In this document: one piece after another, positions 44,937-54,554 of the stretch
How positions within the stretch are numbered: the first letter of the stretch is position 1
Layout of the letters: the number at the start of each line of letters is the position of its first letter
NCBI RefSeq assembly: GCF_000423705.1
Contig: NZ_AUIM01000004.1
Coordinates: forward strand, 372,001 to 436,000
DNA length: 64,000 nucleotides
DNA from: Stappia stellulata DSM 5886
GTDB taxonomy: Bacteria; Pseudomonadota; Alphaproteobacteria; Rhizobiales; Stappiaceae
Direction: 5' to 3'
The notes under the pieces: generated by a model
Databases searched by the model: none
What the model saw: only the letters and a program-made list of their open reading frames with translations
Told to the model about the DNA's origin: nothing
Translations under genes and position numbers: made by a program

Positions 44937-45599
44937 CTAGTCGACGCTGATCCCCGCCGTGTCGCCGTCCTCGTCCGGTGTCACGTCGAGAATGCGCGCC
45001 CGCTTGGTGATCTTCACCTCGTCCTTGCAATCGGTCATGCAAGGCTCGACTTCGGAGACCAGCGGCGTGTCGGGCCGGTCGTCCTCGATGAAGCCATCCT
45101 CGTTCGGCATGCGGATCGAGGTGAAATTCTCATTCGAAAGCTCGAACTCGTCGTCCGTCACCACATCGTTCATGTACAGGAGATAGGCGACGATCGCATA
45201 GGTCTGGTCGGGCGTCAGGCTCTGTGCGTTGCCAAACGGCATGGACCGGTAAATGTAATCATAGACCGTCGACAGATAGGGCCAATAGGACCCGATCGTC
45301 TTGACCGGATGCTGGCTTTTGAGCGTGTCCCAGCCGCCGGCGAGCACCGGCCAGCGCCCGGCGCCCTCGGCGAAATCGCCATGGCAGACCGCGCATTGCT
45401 CGGCAAAGACCACCTCGCCCTCGGCGACCGTTCCGCGTCCCTCGGGCAGACCCTGGCCGTCCGGGCGGACATCGATGTTCCATCCCGCAATCTCTTCGGG
45501 CGTCGCCTCGGTGCCCAGCCCGAGCTTGCCGGCGCCGGCCGCGCCTGCAACGAGGGAAACGCCGGCGGCAACCGTGAGGACCTTAAGAAATCTCGACAT
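44937..45599 (-). CDS. soxD: SoxD, monoheme cytochrome c subunit of sulfane dehydrogenase SoxCD
   Basis: A 220-residue cytochrome with signal peptide (about 1-25) and a single heme motif CAVCH at 69-73; a methionine-containing YIYRSMPFGNAQSLTPDQTYAIVAY stretch supplies the second heme ligand and is highly typical of SoxD. The C-terminus has a non-heme C-x3-C pair (C187, C191) before a KITKRARI segment. Diheme SoxD of Paracoccus is longer, about 380 residues; this is the short one-heme type. It overlaps the soxC 3' end by 17 nt and probably shares translation. Confidence 0.92.
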   Translation of the reverse strand: MSRFLKVLTVAAGVSLVAGAAGAGKLGLGTEATPEEIAGWNIDVRPDGQGLPEGRGTVAEGEVVFAEQCAVCHGDFAEGAGRWPVLAGGWDTLKSQHPVKTIGSYWPYLSTVYDYIYRSMPFGNAQSLTPDQTYAIVAYLLYMNDVVTDDEFELSNENFTSIRMPNEDGFIEDDRPDTPLVSEVEPCMTDCKDEVKITKRARILDVTPDEDGDTAGISVD

Positions 45600-46872
45600 T
45601 TTCGACCCCTCCATTGGCCATCACGTGCCACGTTTGAATGCCGTTGTTGTGATAGATGGAATTCTCGCCGCGCACGGCCCTGAGCTCGTCCTTGGTCGGC
45701 TGCACATAGCCCGTGTCATCATAGGCGCGCGACTGCAGCAGCAGGTCGGATCCGTCCCAGTCGAACTCGAAATAGAAGCGGTGCAGCGCCTTGGGCAGGC
45801 TCGGCCCGTCGATGCGCGCCTGATGCCAGTTCTTGCCGCCATCGAGCGTGACATCGACCCGCGTGACGCGGCCGTTGCCGGACCATGCCAGACCGGTCAG
45901 CACCGTCTGGCCCTTGCCGTGGGTGATCGGCGCCTGCGGGCTCGGGTTGGTGATCACGGACTTTGCGTCCATTACCCAGGTAAAGCGACGCGCCTTGCCA
46001 CTGGCGAGAAGGTCGGTGTACTTCGACGTCTCTTCGCGCGCATGCCACGGCTGATCGCCAACCTCGATGCGGCGCAGCCATTTGACCCACATGTTGCCTT
46101 CCCAGCCGGGAACGACAAGACGGGCCGGATAGCCCTGCTCCGGGCGCAGCGCCTCGCCGTTCATCTTGAAGGCGACCATGCAATCGTCGAGCGCCTTTTC
46201 GATCGGCACGGAGCGGTTCATTCCGGCCGCGTCGCCGCCTTCCGGCATGATCCACTTGGCGTTGGTCTTGAGGCCCGCTTCTTCCAGAATGTATTTCAGC
46301 GGCACGCCGGTATACATCACGCAGTGGACCATGCCATGCGTGAACTGGCAGCCGTTCAACTGGGCGCCGCGCCATTCCATGCCGGAATTGGCCGCACACT
46401 CCAGGAAATAGAGCCGGTTCTCACGCGGGAAGCGCTTCAAGTCCTCCAGCGTGAAGATCAGCGGCTTGTCGACCAGGCCGTTGATCATCAACCGGTAATC
46501 GGTCGGATTCATCTCGGCGACGCCGCCGTGATGACGCTCGAAGCACAGCCCGTTCGGCGTGATGATGCCGTCGAGATCATGCAGCGGGGTGAAATTGATC
46601 GAGCTTTCGCGCGAGGCCGTCAGCCATTCGACGCTGCGCCGCACCACCTCCGATTCATGCTCGGACGGCATGCCGTAAGGCGCGTTGTCGACGCCAACGC
46701 CGAGATAGCGGCTCCAGTCGGCGACATTGGGCGGCAGGTTGTAGGGATCCGGCTCGGCTGCCCGCGCGAATCCGGCCGTCGCGGCCAGACCGCCCGCCGC
46801 AAGCCCCGCCTTGAGGAGGTTGCGCCTGGAGGGACTGGCGATGCCTTTCTCCGGCGTATCAGATTTCGACAT
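45583..46872 (-). CDS. soxC: SoxC, molybdenum-cofactor subunit of sulfane dehydrogenase
   Basis: A 429-residue molybdoenzyme of the sulfite oxidase family, catalysing six-electron oxidation of the SoxY-bound sulfane. It has a Tat signal (PSRRNLLKAGLAAG), the Moco-binding Cys in LYFLECAANSG, and a C-terminal dimerisation domain ending in IYHNNGIQTWHVMANGGVENVEI. ATG at 46872 is used because it starts with the signal and has GGAGAG upstream. It lies 84 nt after soxB, with a dyad in the gap. Confidence 0.95.
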   Translation of the reverse strand: MSKSDTPEKGIASPSRRNLLKAGLAAGGLAATAGFARAAEPDPYNLPPNVADWSRYLGVGVDNAPYGMPSEHESEVVRRSVEWLTASRESSINFTPLHDLDGIITPNGLCFERHHGGVAEMNPTDYRLMINGLVDKPLIFTLEDLKRFPRENRLYFLECAANSGMEWRGAQLNGCQFTHGMVHCVMYTGVPLKYILEEAGLKTNAKWIMPEGGDAAGMNRSVPIEKALDDCMVAFKMNGEALRPEQGYPARLVVPGWEGNMWVKWLRRIEVGDQPWHAREETSKYTDLLASGKARRFTWVMDAKSVITNPSPQAPITHGKGQTVLTGLAWSGNGRVTRVDVTLDGGKNWHQARIDGPSLPKALHRFYFEFDWDGSDLLLQSRAYDDTGYVQPTKDELRAVRGENSIYHNNGIQTWHVMANGGVENVEIS

Positions 46873-46907
46873 TTTCTCTCTCCGGTTCGATCGGATCAAA
46901 TCCATTT

Positions 46908-46923
46908 ATTCAGATACATGAAC
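46908..46923 (-). promoter_or_regulatory. possible SoxR operator upstream of soxC (one mismatch)
   Basis: On the + strand the site reads ATTC-N8-GAAC (spacer 46912-46919), one mismatch from the ATTC-N8-GAAT sequence. It lies 36-51 nt upstream of the soxC ATG, in the soxB-soxC gap. Confidence 0.35.
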
Positions 46924-46956
46924 ATTGAAGGCGCAGACGGGTCCGCGAGAGACCCG

Positions 46957-48651
46957 TCACATGCCCACGACCTTGACCGCACGATTGCCTTCCAGCTTGA
47001 CCGTCCCGCGTTCCTTGAGGTGCCCCTCCACGACATCCCAGATCGCAGGACCTTCCGTGCCTTCGTTGACGCTGGCCCAACCGGCGACCACGTAGTTGCG
47101 ATCGGGGTCGATCGGCGAGCCGTCCTTGAGGAAGGTCATGTCGGAAATCCGGCTGCCGATGCCGGCCGTCGGATTGATGGAGTAGGCCATCCCGCCGACG
47201 CGAACCATGTCGCCGCCCTGCTGGTAATAGGGATCGGCGTTGAACAGGTTGTCGGCCACGTCCTCGAGGATCTCCTTGATCAGCGCACCGCTCATTTCAG
47301 AGCGATAGGCCTGCGGATAGGTCATCGAGGTGGCGTTGTGGAGATCCTCCACGGTGATCGCCTGACCGGAGGGCACGGTTGTGCCCCAGCGGAAGCCGGG
47401 CGACATCGCGATTTCCGCATCCCGCTGATCGATCAGCGCGTCACAGATCAGATCGTCGAAGGTGCCGTTGAAGTTGCCACGGCGATAGAGCAGCGATTCC
47501 GTCGTCGCGAGTTCGCGGCCGAGCTCGTCGGCATAGGGCGCGCGCACCTTCTCGACCAGCGCGGTTGTCTCCGCGTCGGGAGCGATCACGTCGGAGAAGA
47601 TCGGGATCAGCTTGAAGCGGAAGTCCTTCACCTCGCCTTCGCGCACGTCGAGATCGAGGCGGGACAGGAATTTGCCGTTGGACCCGGAGGCGATCAGCAA
47701 GGTCTTGCCGACCTTCACCGGTTCGGGGAGCGCGTCGTGGGTGTGACCCATCAGGATGACGTCGATGCCCGACACGCGGCTTGCCAGCTTGCGGTCGACG
47801 TCGAAGCCGTTGTGCGACAGCATCACGATCACCTCGGCGCCATCGGCACGGGCCGCGTCGACATTCGCCTGGACGTCTTCCTCGCGGATGCCGAACGACC
47901 AGTTCGGGAACATCCAGCGCGGGTTGGCGACCGGGGTATAGGGAAACGCCTGACCGACGACGCCGATCTTCACGCCGCCACGCTCGAACATCTTGTAGGC
48001 CTTGAAGACAGGCTCGTCCCATTCGGTGTCGCGAATGTTGCCGCCCAGGAAGGCGAAGGGCAGATCCGCGACGATTTCCTCGACGCGGTCGCTGCCGTAG
48101 GTGAATTCCCAATGGCCGGTCATCGCGTCGGGGCGCAGGGCGTTCATCACCTCGATCATGTCGGCGCCGCCGGTCTTGAGCGAGGTATAACTGCCCTGCC
48201 AGGTGTCGCCGCCATCGAGAAACAGCGTGTTGGCATCGCGATCCGCCCGGATCGACTTCAGCACGGTGGCGATGCGGTCGATCCCGCCCATGCGACCATA
48301 GGTCTGCGACAGCGCGTCGAAATCCTGCGACGTCAGAGCATAGGCCGCGGGAGAGCCGGGCTGAATATCATAGAGCTTCAGGAAATCGGCGCCGCTCACA
48401 TGCGGCGGCAGTCCCTTGACCTCGCCAACGCCGAGGTTGATCGACGGCTCGCGGAAATAGACCGGCATGAGCTGGGCGTGAATGTCGGTGAGATGCACCA
48501 GCGTGACATTGCCAAGCGGCTGGAACCCGAGGATATCGTCTTCACGCAGCGCCTGCTGGGCCGCGAGCCGGCTCCATTTGCCAAAGCCCGAGCCACCGAC
48601 CATCGCCGATGTCGCCACGGCTGCCATCAGGAATTCACGTCTGGAAATCAT
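46957..48651 (-). CDS. soxB: SoxB, thiosulfohydrolase
   Basis: A 564-residue manganese enzyme of the 5'-nucleotidase family that removes terminal sulfate from the SoxY-bound sulfonate. The N-terminal Tat signal is ISRREFLMAAVATSAMVGG. Metal and catalytic motifs are HLTDIHAQL, FLDGGDTWQGS, GHWEFTYG (a SoxB hallmark replacing GNHEF), LSHNGFDVD and GHTHDA. The C-terminal domain carries the SoxY-docking region. ATG at 48651 starts the signal; the earlier in-frame GTG at 48663 is less likely. It is 241 nt after soxA. Confidence 0.97.
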   Translation of the reverse strand: MISRREFLMAAVATSAMVGGSGFGKWSRLAAQQALREDDILGFQPLGNVTLVHLTDIHAQLMPVYFREPSINLGVGEVKGLPPHVSGADFLKLYDIQPGSPAAYALTSQDFDALSQTYGRMGGIDRIATVLKSIRADRDANTLFLDGGDTWQGSYTSLKTGGADMIEVMNALRPDAMTGHWEFTYGSDRVEEIVADLPFAFLGGNIRDTEWDEPVFKAYKMFERGGVKIGVVGQAFPYTPVANPRWMFPNWSFGIREEDVQANVDAARADGAEVIVMLSHNGFDVDRKLASRVSGIDVILMGHTHDALPEPVKVGKTLLIASGSNGKFLSRLDLDVREGEVKDFRFKLIPIFSDVIAPDAETTALVEKVRAPYADELGRELATTESLLYRRGNFNGTFDDLICDALIDQRDAEIAMSPGFRWGTTVPSGQAITVEDLHNATSMTYPQAYRSEMSGALIKEILEDVADNLFNADPYYQQGGDMVRVGGMAYSINPTAGIGSRISDMTFLKDGSPIDPDRNYVVAGWASVNEGTEGPAIWDVVEGHLKERGTVKLEGNRAVKVVGM

Positions 48652-48892
48652 CCTGCAATCCACCTTCTGGAGGCATCATTCAAAGGACATGGCTCCGCCG
48701 TTCCGGCGAGATCACCGCCAGCGAACCAGTTCCGATACGGTGTTTTTTCGATCCCGGGGGATCGCTGTCGGACCGGGCCCCACCGGCGCACGGGAGCGCG
48801 AAACCGGTGTCCGGTCGGTCAACGGCGGCGGCGCAGTGCGGGATCGCGGACCCGGCCCCGCCGCCACTGTCAAATTTGCGGATTTTCCGGCG

Positions 48893-49747
48893 TCAGTTGC
48901 GCACTGCCGGCGTCTCCACGGAAAGCCCCTCGCCGCGCCAGGCAAGATAGGTTTCGAGCGCGACGAACTCATCCGATCCGCGCTTGAAGGCCTCGGCGCG
49001 GATGTTGTCCATGCAGCCCTTGAAGCGGCGATGCAGCGAGCCCATTTTCTGCCACTTCAACCGATAGGTCGGAAACCCGTTCGACTGCCCCTGGCTGAGA
49101 CGGTCGGCACGGATGTAGTTGCCGTAATTGGCTTCGTGACAATTGGCGCAAGCCAGATCGAGCTGACCGAAGCGCGTGTAGTAGAAGTCCTTGCCCTTCT
49201 CCCACCAGCTCATCATGTCACCGGCCTCGATGTCGACATCGACCGGCATGCCGCGCGACTGAAGACCGACGTAGGCCGTCATCGCCAGCATGTCGTCCGA
49301 TTCCCATTTCCAGGCATCGGCACCCATCTGTTCGGTCCGGCACTCGTTGATCTGGTTTTCCAGGGTGAAGGGACGTCCGGCGGCCTCGTTCCACTTCGGC
49401 ATCGCGGCGCGCACGCCCTTCATGCTTTCCGCTGCGTCGCCGTGACAGCTCTCGCAAGACTTTCCGGCGGAGCCTTCGGCGGTCGACCATGTCTCCTCGC
49501 CACTTTCCACCAGCAGGAAACCGGGATTGGTGAAATCGTCCAGCTCCAGCGCTTGCGTTTCCTTGGTACGGAATTCGAAACCCGAAATGATTTCGGGAAG
49601 CGGATGGTCTTTCGGCGCCTCGGCGCGTGTCTTCAACTCGACACCATCGATGCTTGGCAGGTTGGATTGGTCGGCCAACACACCGCTCGTCGCCAGTATG
49701 GCGGTTGCGGCAGCGCCGGCGACGAAAATACCCGGGAGATTCCTCAT
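48893..49747 (-). CDS. soxA: SoxA, diheme cytochrome c of the SoxAX L-cysteine S-thiosulfotransferase
   Basis: A 284-residue cytochrome with signal peptide (about 1-25). Heme motifs are CESCH (98-102) and CANCH (200-204); the cysteine C245 in RRFKGCMDNIRAE is the modified, persulfide-bearing heme ligand and active-site residue. With SoxX it couples thiosulfate to the SoxY cysteine. The ATG at 49745-49747 has GGAGGG 8 nt upstream. It is 101 nt from soxZ and 241 nt from soxB. Confidence 0.96.
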   Translation of the reverse strand: MRNLPGIFVAGAAATAILATSGVLADQSNLPSIDGVELKTRAEAPKDHPLPEIISGFEFRTKETQALELDDFTNPGFLLVESGEETWSTAEGSAGKSCESCHGDAAESMKGVRAAMPKWNEAAGRPFTLENQINECRTEQMGADAWKWESDDMLAMTAYVGLQSRGMPVDVDIEAGDMMSWWEKGKDFYYTRFGQLDLACANCHEANYGNYIRADRLSQGQSNGFPTYRLKWQKMGSLHRRFKGCMDNIRAEAFKRGSDEFVALETYLAWRGEGLSVETPAVRN

Positions 49748-49848
49748 TGTGGCTTTCCCTCCAGCGCGAACCCTTCGGTTCGTCTTGTTATCTTTGTTTT
49801 CTTCCAGAACCAGGACTGGCGGCACCGCGGCCGCCAGCCAAACCGCGC

Positions 49849-50175
49849 TTACTCGACCGCGATCTTGGATTCCGTCGAGTATTCCGACCCATCATCATCC
49901 AACCAGGTGAACTTGAACGTGCCGGATTCCGGAACCTTGGCACTGAACTCAAGGTAGGGATTGGCGGAGATCGCCGGCTCGAGGTCGCATGAGAACACGG
50001 TCTTGCCGTTGAAGTCGCACGTGAACTTGTTGATGATCTGGCGCGGGATGACGTTGCCGTCCTTGTCCTTGCGCTGCCCGGATTCCATCTTGTGCGAAAT
50101 CAGCGTCTTGATGGTGATGACTTCGTCTTTCGATGCCGTCTTGGGCACCTTTACGCGGGGTTTCGATTTGGCCAT
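49849..50175 (-). CDS. soxZ: SoxZ, subunit of the SoxYZ sulfur carrier
   Basis: A 108-residue beta-sandwich protein that holds SoxY. The N-terminus KPRVKVPKTASKDEVITIKTLISHKMESGQRKD is typical, as is the C-terminal PESGTFKFTWLDDDGSE. It has no signal peptide and is co-exported with SoxY by its Tat signal. Tandem with soxY with 48 nt between. Confidence 0.96.
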   Translation of the reverse strand: MAKSKPRVKVPKTASKDEVITIKTLISHKMESGQRKDKDGNVIPRQIINKFTCDFNGKTVFSCDLEPAISANPYLEFSAKVPESGTFKFTWLDDDGSEYSTESKIAVE

Positions 50176-50223
50176 GTGGCCCTCCTGCCTGTGTATGTCT
50201 CGAATAAGGGCGTTTTGACCGGA

Positions 50224-50676
50224 TCAGCCGCCGCAGCCGCCGATCGTCACCTTGACGGTCTTGCGATCCATGTAGACCTTGCCCGTGGAGGTTTTCGCGA
50301 GCGCGATGACATCCTGCGTCTTGGCGAGCCGCATGCGTGTTGTGGCTTCCGCCGCGCCGGACATCGGCGTGAAATGGAAGGTCGCGACATCCGGGGACGG
50401 ATTGCCGGCGGCAAGCAAGGTCACTTCCGTGATGTGGTCATCGTCGCTCATCGGACTGTCCACGGCGAAGCTGATCGGCACGGTGTTGCCGTTCTCGGCA
50501 ATTTCCGGCGCTGTCAGGGAGACATTCGCCGTCTCCGGCGTCGCGCCACCCGAAAAGGCATCGATCGCGGCCTGGACCTTGTCTTCCTCGGCAAACGTTA
50601 CGCGCGGCAGGCCGGTCAAGGCGACCGCGGCGACACCGGCTCCCAGGGCAAACACCTGGCGTCGAGTAATAGTCAT
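50224..50676 (-). CDS. soxY: SoxY, sulfur-carrier protein
   Basis: A 150-residue protein with a Tat-type signal (ITRRQVFALGAG, core to about residue 29). The C-terminal GGCGG (C148) is the carrier cysteine that holds the substrate sulfur. ATG at 50674-50676 has GAGGA eight nt upstream; two in-frame ATGs lie just before (50685, 50691). The gene is 67 nt after soxX. Confidence 0.96.
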   Translation of the reverse strand: MTITRRQVFALGAGVAAVALTGLPRVTFAEEDKVQAAIDAFSGGATPETANVSLTAPEIAENGNTVPISFAVDSPMSDDDHITEVTLLAAGNPSPDVATFHFTPMSGAAEATTRMRLAKTQDVIALAKTSTGKVYMDRKTVKVTIGGCGG

Positions 50677-50743: not shown

Positions 50744-51199
50744 TTATTCCGAAAGGGTCTTCAGATAGGCGACGACGTCCTCGACCTGCTGCGCCGTGAG
50801 AATCGGCTTGCCGGCGAACTTGTCCATCACGAGATTCAAGCCCTCCACACGATGAAAGGCCGGCATGATCGTTCCGTCGTAGACCATCTTGGGATTGACG
50901 ACGATCATGCGCAACGTCGCCTCGTCCCAGCGATCGGCAACGCCATCAAGGGGCGGCCCCACCTCGCCGTGGAACGGCTCGTTCGCAAGATCCGCCGCGG
51001 TATGGCAGGCGAGACAATTGCCGAGCTTGCGGTCGACCACGGCCTGCTTGCCGGCAACGGGGTCGCCGGCCACATCCGTGAGGGGCTGGGGGATCGTTCC
51101 GTCCACGACCTCAAAGGAGGCGATATCACTGGCGGAGGCCGTGGCAACTCCGAGCAGGAGCACGCAAGCGGCTATCGTGCCTTGGCGAATGACACTCAT
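50744..51199 (-). CDS. soxX: SoxX, monoheme cytochrome c of SoxAX
   Basis: A 151-residue cytochrome with signal peptide (about 1-24, ending ASAS) and heme motif CLACH at 62-66, followed by a Met ligand in GTIMPAFHRVEGL. It accepts electrons from SoxA. ATG at 51197-51199 has GGAAGGA upstream. An exact ATTC-N8-GAAT dyad lies 115 nt before the start, suggesting it is the first gene of a regulated transcript (soxXYZABCDEF). Confidence 0.96.
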   Translation of the reverse strand: MSVIRQGTIAACVLLLGVATASASDIASFEVVDGTIPQPLTDVAGDPVAGKQAVVDRKLGNCLACHTAADLANEPFHGEVGPPLDGVADRWDEATLRMIVVNPKMVYDGTIMPAFHRVEGLNLVMDKFAGKPILTAQQVEDVVAYLKTLSE

Positions 51200-51314
51200 G
51201 GGCGTTTTTCCTTCCCTCTGCCGGCGAACCCGGCCTTTGATTTTTTTGATCGGCCGTTGATCCACGACGCATGCGGGAAACGTAGCAGCAACTTATGCCC
51301 GGATCAATTCACAT

Positions 51315-51330
51315 ATTCGATTATCAGAAT
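51315..51330 (-). promoter_or_regulatory. likely SoxR/SqrR-type operator upstream of soxX (exact ATTC-N8-GAAT)
   Basis: ATTC (51315-51318), eight bases (51319-51326) and GAAT (51327-51330); the dyad extends to TATTC/GAATA at 51314-51331. This is the consensus recalled for the ArsR-type persulfide sensor SqrR and its relatives. It lies between the soxV stop and soxX, and the nearby soxR gene codes such a regulator. Confidence 0.7.
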
Positions 51331-51456
51331 ACATCGGACGGCGGATGCCTGCCCGTCCGGGTCGATCGCACTCATGTTGCGTGGCGCACACGCGTTCGCG
51401 CGGCGTCGCACAACCCGCGCGACGCCGGGAGACGGAGCCCTGAAAGCGACGTAACG

Positions 51457-52194
51457 TCAGCCGATTGTGCCAAGCGTCGGGAAGGTTTCGAGCAGCCAGA
51501 ACGACAGCGCGGCCATCTGGCCCGTCATGAAGGCGATGCCGGTCAGGATCAGCACCACGCCCATCACCCGTTCCACGGTGACCATATGCTTGCGAAACCG
51601 CGACATGAACCGCATGAAGGGTCCGGCGAACATCCCGGCGACCAGGAACGGCACGCCGATTCCCAAGGCATAGGCCCCGAGCAGCGTCGCTCCCTGCAGC
51701 ACCGATTCCTCGCTTCCGGCGACGAACAGGATCGCCGCGAGGATCGGACCGACGCACGGCGTCCAGCCGAAGGCAAAGGCCAGGCCGATGACATAGGCCC
51801 CGATCAGGCCGGCGGGCTTGCGTTCCACATGGACGCGCGCTTCGCGGTAAAGCAGGCCGATGCGGAACACGCCAAGGAAATGCAGCCCCATGATGATAAT
51901 GGCCACCCCGGCGATATAGCCGAAGATCTGGATGTACTGCGTGACGAACTGACCGATGAAGGACGCGCTTGCCCCCAGCGCGACGAACACGGTCGAGAAC
52001 CCGAGAACAAAGGCAAGCGAGGCAAAGAAGACCCGGCGCGGGTCCGCGCGCTCGACGCCCTCGCCGGTAAGCTCGTCAAGCGAGACGCCGGCCAGAAACC
52101 CGAGGTAGGGCGGCACAAGCGGCAAAACGCAGGGCGACACGAAAGACAGGAGACCGGCAAAAAACGAACCGATGAGTGTGACTTCTTGAAACAT
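51457..52194 (-). CDS. soxV: SoxV, CcdA-like thiol-electron transporter
   Basis: A 245-residue membrane protein of the DsbD/CcdA family with six membrane segments. The N-terminal LLSFVSPCVLPLVPPYLGFLAG and the GWTPCVGPILAAIL motif carry the two redox cysteines. SoxV carries electrons from the cytoplasm to periplasmic thioredoxins that keep SoxY reduced. The ATG at 52194 is followed by FQEVTL. No SoxW gene is present, so the divergent SoxS-like protein is the most likely periplasmic acceptor. Confidence 0.93.
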   Translation of the reverse strand: MFQEVTLIGSFFAGLLSFVSPCVLPLVPPYLGFLAGVSLDELTGEGVERADPRRVFFASLAFVLGFSTVFVALGASASFIGQFVTQYIQIFGYIAGVAIIIMGLHFLGVFRIGLLYREARVHVERKPAGLIGAYVIGLAFAFGWTPCVGPILAAILFVAGSEESVLQGATLLGAYALGIGVPFLVAGMFAGPFMRFMSRFRKHMVTVERVMGVVLILTGIAFMTGQMAALSFWLLETFPTLGTIG

Positions 52195-52362: not shown

Positions 52363-52380
52363 TATTCCTATTTTTGCATA
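52363..52380. promoter_or_regulatory. possible SoxR operator between soxV and soxS (one mismatch)
   Basis: TATTC (52363-52367), spacer of eight, then GCATA (52376-52380) instead of GAATA. It lies 77 nt upstream of soxS and 168 nt upstream of the divergent soxV, in the natural position to control both. Confidence 0.45.
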
Positions 52381-52456: not shown

Positions 52457-52891
52457 ATGATCAGACCCGTAACACGCTTTTTTCCCCGATACGCACTCGC
52501 AGCACTTGCATTGCTCCTTGCGTCCGTCATCCTCCCCTCGCTCCCGGCAAAGGCAGCGGAACTCGTCATGTTCGAGCAGCGGGGTTGCGAGTGGTGCGAG
52601 CGCTGGAACGCGGAAATCGGCCCGATCTATCCGAAGACCGAGGAAGGCAAGCTCGCGCCCCTGCGCCGGGTGGACATCCACGAGAAGATGCCGGAAGACC
52701 TCGCATGGCTGCGGCGGGAGGTTTTCACACCGAGTTTCGCGCTCGTGCACGAGGGACGCGAGTACGGCCGCATTCGCGGCTATCCGGGCGAGGATTTCTT
52801 CTGGGGCCTGCTCGGCCAGATGGTGGAAAAATTCAGACAGCGCACCGGGGATGGCGCACGTTTGCGCACGGACACGCCCTCCCCTGGATGA
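52457..52891 (+). CDS. soxS: SoxS-like periplasmic thioredoxin
   Basis: A 144-residue thioredoxin-like protein with signal peptide (about 1-33, ending AKAAE). The active site is CEWCERW, in the C-x-x-C position at about residues 43-46. In Paracoccus, SoxS keeps SoxY active by reducing its thiol, and it takes electrons from SoxV. The ATG is preceded by a weak site. It is divergent from soxV and lies upstream of soxR. It could be a SoxW homologue, but its small size and position favour SoxS. Confidence 0.8.
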   Translation: MIRPVTRFFPRYALAALALLLASVILPSLPAKAAELVMFEQRGCEWCERWNAEIGPIYPKTEEGKLAPLRRVDIHEKMPEDLAWLRREVFTPSFALVHEGREYGRIRGYPGEDFFWGLLGQMVEKFRQRTGDGARLRTDTPSPG

Positions 52892-53050
52892 AGAGGCACC
52901 GGCTTCCCAGCGCGGCCGGATGGCAGTATATGCAAACCGTCGCAAGCACGCAGGCCCGGATGCGTCTCGGTTCGGCCTGTGCCGGAACGCGAAGCTGCCA
53001 CTGCTATTGGATTGCCCGAACACCGGGCGACGTACAACAAGGATCACATC

Positions 53051-53383
53051 GTGTCTCTTCCCAGCACTCAGGATCTCGAGTGTTCTTCTGATCTCGAGAA
53101 AATCATCGACCGGGCGAAAACGGCGAGCGATTTCCTCAAGGCAATTGCCCATGAAAGCCGGCTTCTGATCCTGTGCATCCTGGCGGAAGGCGAGAAATCC
53201 GTCACCGAGCTGGAGGCGCTCCTGTCCTTGCGACAGCCCACGGTCTCGCAGCAGTTGGCGCGTTTGCGCATGGACAAGCTCGTGTCCACACGGCGAGAGG
53301 GCAAAACAGTATATTACAGCTTGGCAAACGAAGACGCCCGCAAGATCATTGAATCGGTCTACGATGTTTTCTGCCGGGACTGA
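53051..53383 (+). CDS. soxR: SoxR, ArsR-family persulfide/sulfide-sensing repressor
   Basis: A 110-residue winged-helix regulator. The recognition helix is LRQPTVSQQLARLR and the wing is STRREGKTVYYSLA. Three cysteines (C11, C42 in LLILCILAEGEKS, C108 in VFCRD) match the placement of C9, C41 and C107 of SqrR, in which C41 and C107 bridge on persulfide binding and release DNA. The GTG at 53051 has AAGGA with 7-nt spacing (53039-53043), so it is preferred over an earlier in-frame GTG at 52979. It is 159 nt after soxS on the same strand. Confidence 0.85.
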   Translation: MSLPSTQDLECSSDLEKIIDRAKTASDFLKAIAHESRLLILCILAEGEKSVTELEALLSLRQPTVSQQLARLRMDKLVSTRREGKTVYYSLANEDARKIIESVYDVFCRD

Positions 53384-53462: not shown

Positions 53463-54554
53463 ATGGACGTTGACACAGCACAAACGGTTGCCATTTACGG
53501 GTTCGCCGGCGGACTGGTGCTCGGTCTGGCCGCCCGCGTCGGGCGGTTTTGTACCATGGGTGCGCTGGAGGATGCCTTTCTCGGCGGTGACAAGCGCAGG
53601 CTGCGCAGCTGGGCGCTTGCGATCGCGGTGGCGACCGCGCTGTCACAGGCACTCGCGCATCTCGGGATCCTGGACTTCCATCACTCCATCTATCTGTCCA
53701 GCGGCTTTCCCTGGTTGGGAGCCGTGCTCGGCGGAATGATGTTCGGCGTCGGCATGGCGCTTGTCGGCACATGCGGCTACGGCACGCTTGCCCGCATCGG
53801 CGGCGGAGATCTCCGGGCCGTGGTGACCTTCCTGGTCATGGCCGTCTCCGCCTATATGGCCATGCGCGGCCTGACGGGCGTCGTTCGCCAGGCGGCGATC
53901 GATCCCTGGATCCTGTCGTTCGAGGCGACCGGCGGCATGGCGCTCGACGGCATCTTCGATGCGTTTACCGGCCTGGACACCGGTCCGGCAATCGGACTGC
54001 TGATCGCGGCCAGCCTCGCGTTCTGGGCGCTGAAGGACGCGAGTTTCCGGGCGGAGACCCGCCTTGTCGTCAGCGGCGTTGCGGTCGGTCTCGCGATTGT
54101 CGGCGGCTGGCTCGCCACCGGCCTCGTCGGCAGCGATCCCTTCGCGCCGCAACGACTGGAATCCTTTACCTTCGTGCGCCCGCTCGGCGACACACTGGTC
54201 TATATGATGACCTTCTCCGGGGCGACGGTGACCTTCGGGATCGGCTCTGTCGTCGGCGTGGTCGCCGGGGCAATTGCCGGCGCGCTCTTCAAGCGCGAGT
54301 TCCGCTGGGAAGCCTGTGACGACGTGCGCGAGTTGCGCCGCCACATCGTCGGCGCCTTCCTGATGGGGACCGGCGGCGTGATGGCCTACGGCTGCACCAT
54401 CGGACAGGGCATCACCGCCGCCTCGACACTGTCGGTATCCGCGCCCGTGGTGATGATCTCGATTGCCATCGGTGCGCGCGCCGGACTGGCATGGCTGATC
54501 GAGGGCAGCCTGCGCGGCATTCTCGCCGCACACGCCTTCTCGCGGGACGCATAG
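53463..54554 (+). CDS. YeeE/YedE (SoxT-like) sulfur transporter
   Basis: A 363-residue integral membrane protein of the YeeE/YedE (TsuA) family, predicted to import thiosulfate or another sulfur compound. Conserved cysteines and Gly motifs occur in RVGRFCTMGALEDA, GTCGYGTLARIGGGDLR and the C-terminal AYGCTIGQGITA, where the two halves of the fold each have G-x-C-x-x-G. Ten membrane segments are plausible. It starts 79 nt after soxR on the same strand. SoxT proteins in Sox and sHdr loci are of this family; the subtype and direction of transport are inferred. Confidence 0.82.
   Translation: MDVDTAQTVAIYGFAGGLVLGLAARVGRFCTMGALEDAFLGGDKRRLRSWALAIAVATALSQALAHLGILDFHHSIYLSSGFPWLGAVLGGMMFGVGMALVGTCGYGTLARIGGGDLRAVVTFLVMAVSAYMAMRGLTGVVRQAAIDPWILSFEATGGMALDGIFDAFTGLDTGPAIGLLIAASLAFWALKDASFRAETRLVVSGVAVGLAIVGGWLATGLVGSDPFAPQRLESFTFVRPLGDTLVYMMTFSGATVTFGIGSVVGVVAGAIAGALFKREFRWEACDDVRELRRHIVGAFLMGTGGVMAYGCTIGQGITAASTLSVSAPVVMISIAIGARAGLAWLIEGSLRGILAAHAFSRDA

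Follow-up and report, generated by a model that had tools for sequence, protein, structure and literature searches.

The targets of the ArsR-type regulator SqrR of R. capsulatus are genes for sulfide oxidation, and the ArsR-type repressor SoxR is reported to have a control region between soxW and soxX in Pseudaminobacter salicylatoxidans and Paracoccus (a finding said to go back to Rother in 2005 and Mandal in 2007). The SqrR operator is printed as ATTC-N8-GAAT in PMC9774250, the only one of six listed papers with this string, which bears out the sequence that the initial annotation of the locus described here had given for it. That SoxR acts between soxS and soxV has been described (PMC5748708), and this region is the SoxR control region given for P. 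salicylatoxidans and Paracoccus (PMC10451225, PMC11582611, PMC5748708). In B. diazoefficiens, deletion of soxR abolishes the thiosulfate induction of soxS, soxV, soxW, and soxY1 (PMC5748708); in the wild type, induction is 4500-fold for soxY1, 90-fold for soxW, 50-fold for soxS and soxV, and 16-fold for soxR (PMC5748708, Table 2). The DNA binding of H. denitrificans SoxR is lost with polysulfide, and thiosulfate has a mild effect (PMC10451225, section 3.6). SoxT1B mutants remain repressed unless SoxR is also absent (PMC11582611).

Here, we describe a dyad in the sox cluster of Stappia stellulata DSM 5886 that lies in the window, i.e., the whole stretch of 64,000 nucleotides that was analyzed. 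As described for P. salicylatoxidans and Paracoccus, soxS and soxV are divergent with predicted SoxR control between them, and the gene for an ArsR-type repressor lies beside soxT; unlike in those systems, there is no soxW between soxV and soxX, and the three Paracoccus records that we inspected carry only a two-mismatch site at soxX. The dyad and its spacing are identical to those of the SqrR operator, and SoxR belongs to the same ArsR subfamily as SqrR, with aligned cysteines; however, the target in Stappia is the thiosulfate-oxidizing sox operon, and the regulator is encoded within the sox cluster. SoxR also has the cysteine pair and the soxT partner described for SoxR/sHdrR of H. denitrificans (PMC10451225, PMC12423496) and, by analogy, may share the polysulfide-sensitive DNA binding, whereas the pathway layout in H. 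denitrificans, with its sHdr genes, is different. The regulator of the BigR operon (bigR, pmpAB, blh) is from the same superfamily; unlike BigR, SoxR of the window scores below the BigR cut-off and is located in a sox cluster. The main text of PMC10451225 and PMC12423496 contains ATTC or GAAT 0 times. In a search of the open literature that was limited in extent, we found neither ATTC-N8-GAAT named for SoxR, nor a SoxR-controlled detached soxG-like gene, nor a rule of perfect and imperfect operators, and we claim no priority for any of these.

A conserved dyad upstream of soxX

As the initial annotation had it, an exact ATTC-N8-GAAT with a TATTC/GAATA extension is present between soxV and soxX. 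The dyad, ATTCGATTATCAGAAT, reads in the window as an inverted repeat with an 8-bp spacer in the context ACATATTC-GATTATCA-GAATACAT, and TATTC-N8-GAATA spans 51314-51331. It is located in the soxV/soxX gap ~116 nt upstream of the soxX ATG; because soxW is absent from this gap, the site directly follows soxV. The position relative to the sox genes is promoter-like, with predicted promoter boxes (Table 1). In an alignment of 13 genomes of the genus, a 15-column block, GAATATGTGAATTGA, which includes the extra GAAT half-site, is unchanged in 13 of 13, and a TACGTT-like sequence follows 17 bases from TTGATC. We read this arrangement as a putative operator that abuts the predicted −35 box, with the further GAAT half-site overlapping that box. 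Judged from the predicted −10 box, transcription would start near 51272.

Table 1. Predicted control sites and sox genes in the window
Feature	Position	Strand	Basis
Main operator, ATTC-N8-GAAT upstream of soxX (predicted)	51315..51330	-	Sequence and phylogenetic footprint
Additional GAAT half-site (GAATATGTGAAT, soxX strand) that overlaps the predicted −35	51307..51310	-	Alignment
Predicted −35 of the soxX promoter, TTGATC	51302..51307	-	Read off the alignment
Predicted −10 of the soxX promoter, TACGTT, 17 nt from the −35	51279..51284	-	Read off the alignment
Second, imperfect predicted operator, TATTC-N8-GCATA, in the divergent soxV/soxS gap	52363..52380	+	Sequence and genus conservation
soxX, first gene of the operon	50744..51199 (ATG at 51199)	-	NCBIfam TIGR04485 above cut-off
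soxY, soxZ, soxA, soxB, soxC, downstream of soxX	45583..50676	-	NCBIfam equivalogs above cut-off
soxD/E/F-like ORFs, after soxC, same direction		-	ORF listing
soxV, CcdA/DsbD-like membrane protein	51457..52194	-	DsbD-type NCBIfam match (below cut-off); location within conserved sox clusters
soxS, thioredoxin-like	52457..52891	+	Location and similarity kept in the sox clusters of relatives; no match in NCBIfam
soxR, ArsR-type repressor	53051..53383	+	Profile and cysteine pair; GTG at 53051 is a guessed start, frame opens at 52979
soxT, YeeE/TsuA-like sulfur transporter beside soxR	53463..54554	+	NCBIfam TsuA match below cut-off and position

For the comparison beyond the genus, 80 loci were fetched by SoxR with one genome per species (the best 80 of 500), among which the closest SoxR of a named locus is from Stappia stellulata (91% identity, tied with one MAG). 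Ten loci without recognizable soxY, soxV, or soxS were left out (L016, L017, L019, L020, L023, L025, L030, L037, L050, and L062). Of the 70 loci that were scored, 66 have one exact ATTC-N8-GAAT between soxY and soxS, and in each of them it lies on the side of soxV that faces soxX. With any other spacer length from 3 to 15, the two half-sites were found in 0 to 8 of the 70 loci, and 50 first-order Markov simulations gave a mean of 2.8 loci and a maximum of 7. The 66 sites represent 61 different 24-mers. The distance to the nearest guessed soxX ATG is 4 to 115 bases in 53 loci and ~690 to 780 bases in 11 Bradyrhizobium loci, and the soxX ORF was not found in two loci; three Bradyrhizobium loci were inspected, and in these soxW stands between the site and soxX. 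The four loci that miss the exact site (L003, L009, L061, and L078) each have a one-mismatch site. Of the 13 genomes of the genus with a close SoxR (own genome included), 11 carry the exact site and 2 a site with one mismatch; this set overlaps with the 70 loci by five (G001/L005, G003/L004, G005/L001, G007/L002, and G013/L003). Across these 13 genomes, column identity is 96% in the arms versus 79% in the spacer.

Plasmid matches to SoxR extend the comparison to Paracoccus. Of 405 such records, 40 of them listed, five were examined; three contain sox clusters of Paracoccus, and the other two have an ArsR gene outside a sox context. In all three Paracoccus clusters (L293, L294, and L296), the soxX site is only ATATTC-N8-CTATAT, which keeps the spacing but differs from the core at two positions (0 of 3 are exact), and the soxV/soxS site has one mismatch. 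Because SoxR control is established in Paracoccus (PMC10451225), these sites argue that the exact dyad is not required everywhere. As a separate observation, an exact ATTC-N8-GAAT (GCATATTC..GAATATAT) is present in a BigR-type gene cluster on plasmid pPAN2 of P. pantotrophus DSM 2944 (L297:8070-8085), ~200 bases ahead of a gene for an MBL-fold protein.

The imperfect site between soxV and soxS

The soxS-soxV gap contains a further candidate control region, which the initial annotation does not mention. The predicted site reads TATTC-CTATTTTT-GCATA, one mismatch from the extended motif, and all 13 genomes of the genus have ATTC-N8-GCAT there. One of the 70 loci had too short a soxV/soxS gap and was dropped from this comparison. 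Of the other 69, 0 have an exact site in the gap, while 33 have one within one mismatch at spacer 8; each of the other spacer lengths from 4 to 13 gives 1 to 14 such loci. Most of the 35 one-mismatch sites are of the GATT (17), AAAT (6), GCAT (5), and ATTA (5) forms. Thus, in the loci scored, perfect sites are the rule at soxX (66 of 70) and were never seen at soxV/soxS (0 of 69). We considered that repression might be graded by operator quality; the 4500-fold induction of soxY1 versus 50-fold for soxS and soxV would fit, but the 90-fold induction of soxW does not, given that soxW is immediately preceded by an exact site in the three Bradyrhizobium loci examined, none of which is the strain measured, and we do not retain this idea.

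A one-mismatch TATTC-N8-GAACA is also found within the cluster in the soxB/soxC gap (46907-46924), just ahead of soxC. The same form is present only in the own genome and 3 of 12 relatives; two others carry, at an equal distance, a version with a different single mismatch, one has another such form, and six have none. We take this site to be a coincidence.

The motif elsewhere in the genome

The bare core ATTC-N8-GAAT occurs 3 times in the window versus 1.08 expected, and 3 or more copies were obtained in 11 of 100 shuffles; the other two exact cores lie within soxB and within another ORF. In the whole genome (4,608,496 bases), there are 35 cores versus ~22.6 expected, an expectation derived from the ATTC frequency in 339 kb of own, partly overlapping DNA. 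By crude gene calls, 21 of these are inside genes and 14 outside; the latter include the soxX site, counted as intergenic although the gene caller placed a spurious antisense ORF over the dyad. The 8-base core alone is hardly above chance and carries little evidential weight, and we dropped it as evidence; what decides that the dyad stands above chance is conservation, not the frequency of the core. In contrast, TATTC-N8-GAATA has three exact occurrences genome-wide versus ~0.5 expected, namely before soxX, at C2:63541 before a YeeE/Sulf_transp pair, and at C2:90356 before a soxG-like gene. A bias toward sulfur-linked genes, for which the initial annotation had proposed to check, is therefore seen with the extended form and hardly with the bare core, which is distributed nearly as expected by chance.

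The site at the YeeE pair, ATATTC-N8-GAATAT (G000:C2:63541-63558; L121:9042-9059), lies ~50 bases ahead of a gene for a 171-amino acid, half-size Sulf_transp protein (C2:62994-63506), which is followed by a second half. Among nine genomes with a match of at least 67% identity (own included), this site is exact in six, has one mismatch in two, and is absent in one.

The site at the soxG-like gene, TCATATTC-N8-GAATATGA (G000:C2:90356-90373; L122:8357-8374), lies 44 bases ahead of a gene (C2:89363-90328) whose sequence reveals a 322-amino acid protein with a metallo-beta-lactamase fold and a twin-arginine-like leader. The exact core is kept in the own genome and in 12 of 12 orthologs of the genus (at least 72% identity), with a diverged spacer; all 16 arm bases (TCATATTC/GAATATGA) are kept in 12 of these 13 genomes, and column identity is 99.5% in the arms versus 58% in the spacer. 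The next two detached homologs outside the genus differ, with an exact site in G022 and none in G036. The protein shares 40% identity with the product of the gene that follows soxF in Paracoccus pantotrophus DSM 11072, where the counterpart itself precedes the gene for another metallohydrolase. We presume that this counterpart is soxG, as expected from the order soxF-soxG-soxH. A tree of 31 such proteins, built from their matched segments, places the 15 rows of the detached form in a clade that is sister to that of the 8 sox-cluster rows (fork 93/83). In eight genomes chosen for having the homolog and a SoxR match on one contig, the homolog is located in or beside the sox cluster, as judged partly by eye; three of these homologs have a one-mismatch ATTC-N8-GCAT ahead, and five have nothing within one mismatch upstream. 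The homolog in G030 lies ~4 kb from soxR and falls outside both clades. SoxG and SoxH are thiosulfate-induced periplasmic zinc metallohydrolases (PMC10221251), and we infer that the soxG-like gene may be counted among the sulfur genes. Against a sulfur role, its top NCBIfam model is a lactonase, far below the cut-off (154 of 360 bits), the best solved relatives of the protein are organophosphorus/parathion hydrolases and lactonases, and the neighboring genes are TtcA-like and ribosomal-S4-like.

Conservation was compared for 4 of the 13 other intergenic exact sites, i.e., the two just described, a control site before an aminotransferase gene, and a site in a DUF1127 region. The exact site before a gene for a class IV aminotransferase (C3:470309) is kept in the own genome and the three closest of 14 genomes and lost in the other 10, and its membership in the regulon is not supported. 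The exact site in a DUF1127/pyridoxamine-oxidase-like region (C1:180013) is kept in two of three relatives with at least 75% identity and absent in four more distant ones, in a comparison that took in 8 of 14 loci. As the aminotransferase site and the one-mismatch site at soxB/soxC show, sites that are not conserved decay within the genus, and the sites at soxX, soxV/soxS, and the soxG-like gene, and less strictly that at the YeeE pair, stand out. On a different note, the exact ATTC-N8-GAAT in the 180-kb region of C1 (L083:2990-3160) is downstream of the DUF1127 gene, and the stretch beside it has repeated CTCCTCC motifs in relative L282, perhaps an anti-Shine-Dalgarno small RNA.

SoxR and its paralogs

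SoxR, encoded 1.7 kb from the dyad, belongs to the ArsR/SmtB family (NF033788, 89.9 bits versus a cut-off of 55) and fails the cut-off of the BigR equivalog in NCBIfam (104.6 versus 155 bits). Its best solved relatives are 6o8k and 13ct, both of which we take to be R. capsulatus SqrR. The sensing cysteine pair of SoxR, spaced 66 residues, aligns with the cysteines of both structures, and 6o8k also matches the N-terminal cysteine; the description of SoxR as SqrR-like in the initial annotation agrees with this. This SoxR is distinct from the MerR-type redox regulator that bears the same name in enteric bacteria. The genome encodes two further ArsR proteins with a cysteine pair 66 residues apart, at C1:844894 (46%) and C5:363422 (36%). 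The former (L123:5781-6227) shares TVSQQLA in the recognition helix with SoxR. The latter (L124:5426-5719) is the product of a BigR-like ArsR gene that adjoins pmpAB-like genes and a blh-type gene, and also scores below the BigR equivalog cut-off (77.7).

We conclude that SoxR very probably has its main operator for the soxXYZABC... operon in this dyad. Because the paralogs have the same cysteine pair and one of them shares much of the recognition helix, a paralog could be the binder or a co-binder; the dyad would then be the operator of another persulfide-type ArsR (C1:844894 or the BigR-like C5:363422) or be shared among the paralogs, as SoxR and sHdrR share targets and probes in H. denitrificans (PMC12423496). 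We consider this unlikely. The operator accompanies soxR in sox clusters across many genera, and an exact ATTC-N8-GAAT is missing from the intergenic region of the BigR-like gene, which lies next to pmpAB-like genes and blh. G004, a genome of the same genus in which SoxR is more distant (48%), has matches like both paralogs, yet no exact site was found in the 18.5 kb of its sox region that was read. The lack of an exact site in G004, in the three Paracoccus clusters, and in four of the 70 loci also counts against the SoxR operator reading itself.

The remaining explanations dispense with an ArsR repressor. The conserved block extends into the −35 box, and RegR and CbbR influence growth on thiosulfate in B. 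diazoefficiens (PMC5748708), so that the block could mainly be a promoter or activator element, e.g., of the RegR or CbbR type, with the dyad being incidental. This is very improbable, given that different first genes follow the dyad (soxX, and soxW in the three inspected Bradyrhizobium loci), that it is found again at soxV/soxS, before the YeeE pair, and before the soxG-like gene, and that it corresponds to the SqrR site. The 16-base match could also be a palindrome that arose by chance in an AT-rich promoter; this would agree with the near-chance numbers of the bare core in window and genome, but the exact spacing in 66 of 70 loci and the better preservation of the arms than of the spacer make it the least probable explanation of all. 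The claim of the initial annotation that SoxR represses the operon is strongly supported as a prediction from the comparison of sequences.

According to the SoxR operator model, in the absence of oxidizable sulfur, a SoxR dimer would occupy ATTC-N8-GAAT and the adjoining GAAT half-site and cover the −35 box, thereby blocking RNA polymerase. When thiosulfate is oxidized, sulfane sulfur would enter, probably through SoxT, and bridge the two conserved cysteines of SoxR; SoxR would then leave the DNA and the operon would be induced. The imperfect soxV/soxS site would allow the sensing and accessory genes to respond too. For Stappia, we infer SoxR binding, the persulfide chemistry, and promoter occlusion by analogy with the described systems. 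If this model is correct, SoxR may govern a dispersed, two-tier regulon, with a perfect lock at soxX, a leaky, imperfect operator with lineage-typical mismatches at soxSRT/soxV, and detached targets at the soxG-like gene and the YeeE pair; taken together, we regard this reading as tentative and somewhat less probable than even. What is new is modest, namely the proposed regulon with targets outside the cluster and a second predicted operator that is imperfect throughout.

Altogether, comparison over many Alphaproteobacteria predicts a SoxR operator with one dyad and one spacing, and the SoxR regulon could therefore be read from genomes. Moreover, the consistently imperfect site at soxV/soxS, together with the predicted targets outside the cluster (the soxG-like gene and the YeeE pair), leads to specific, readily testable predictions as to how sulfur oxidizers may hold the pathway off and yet keep it ready.
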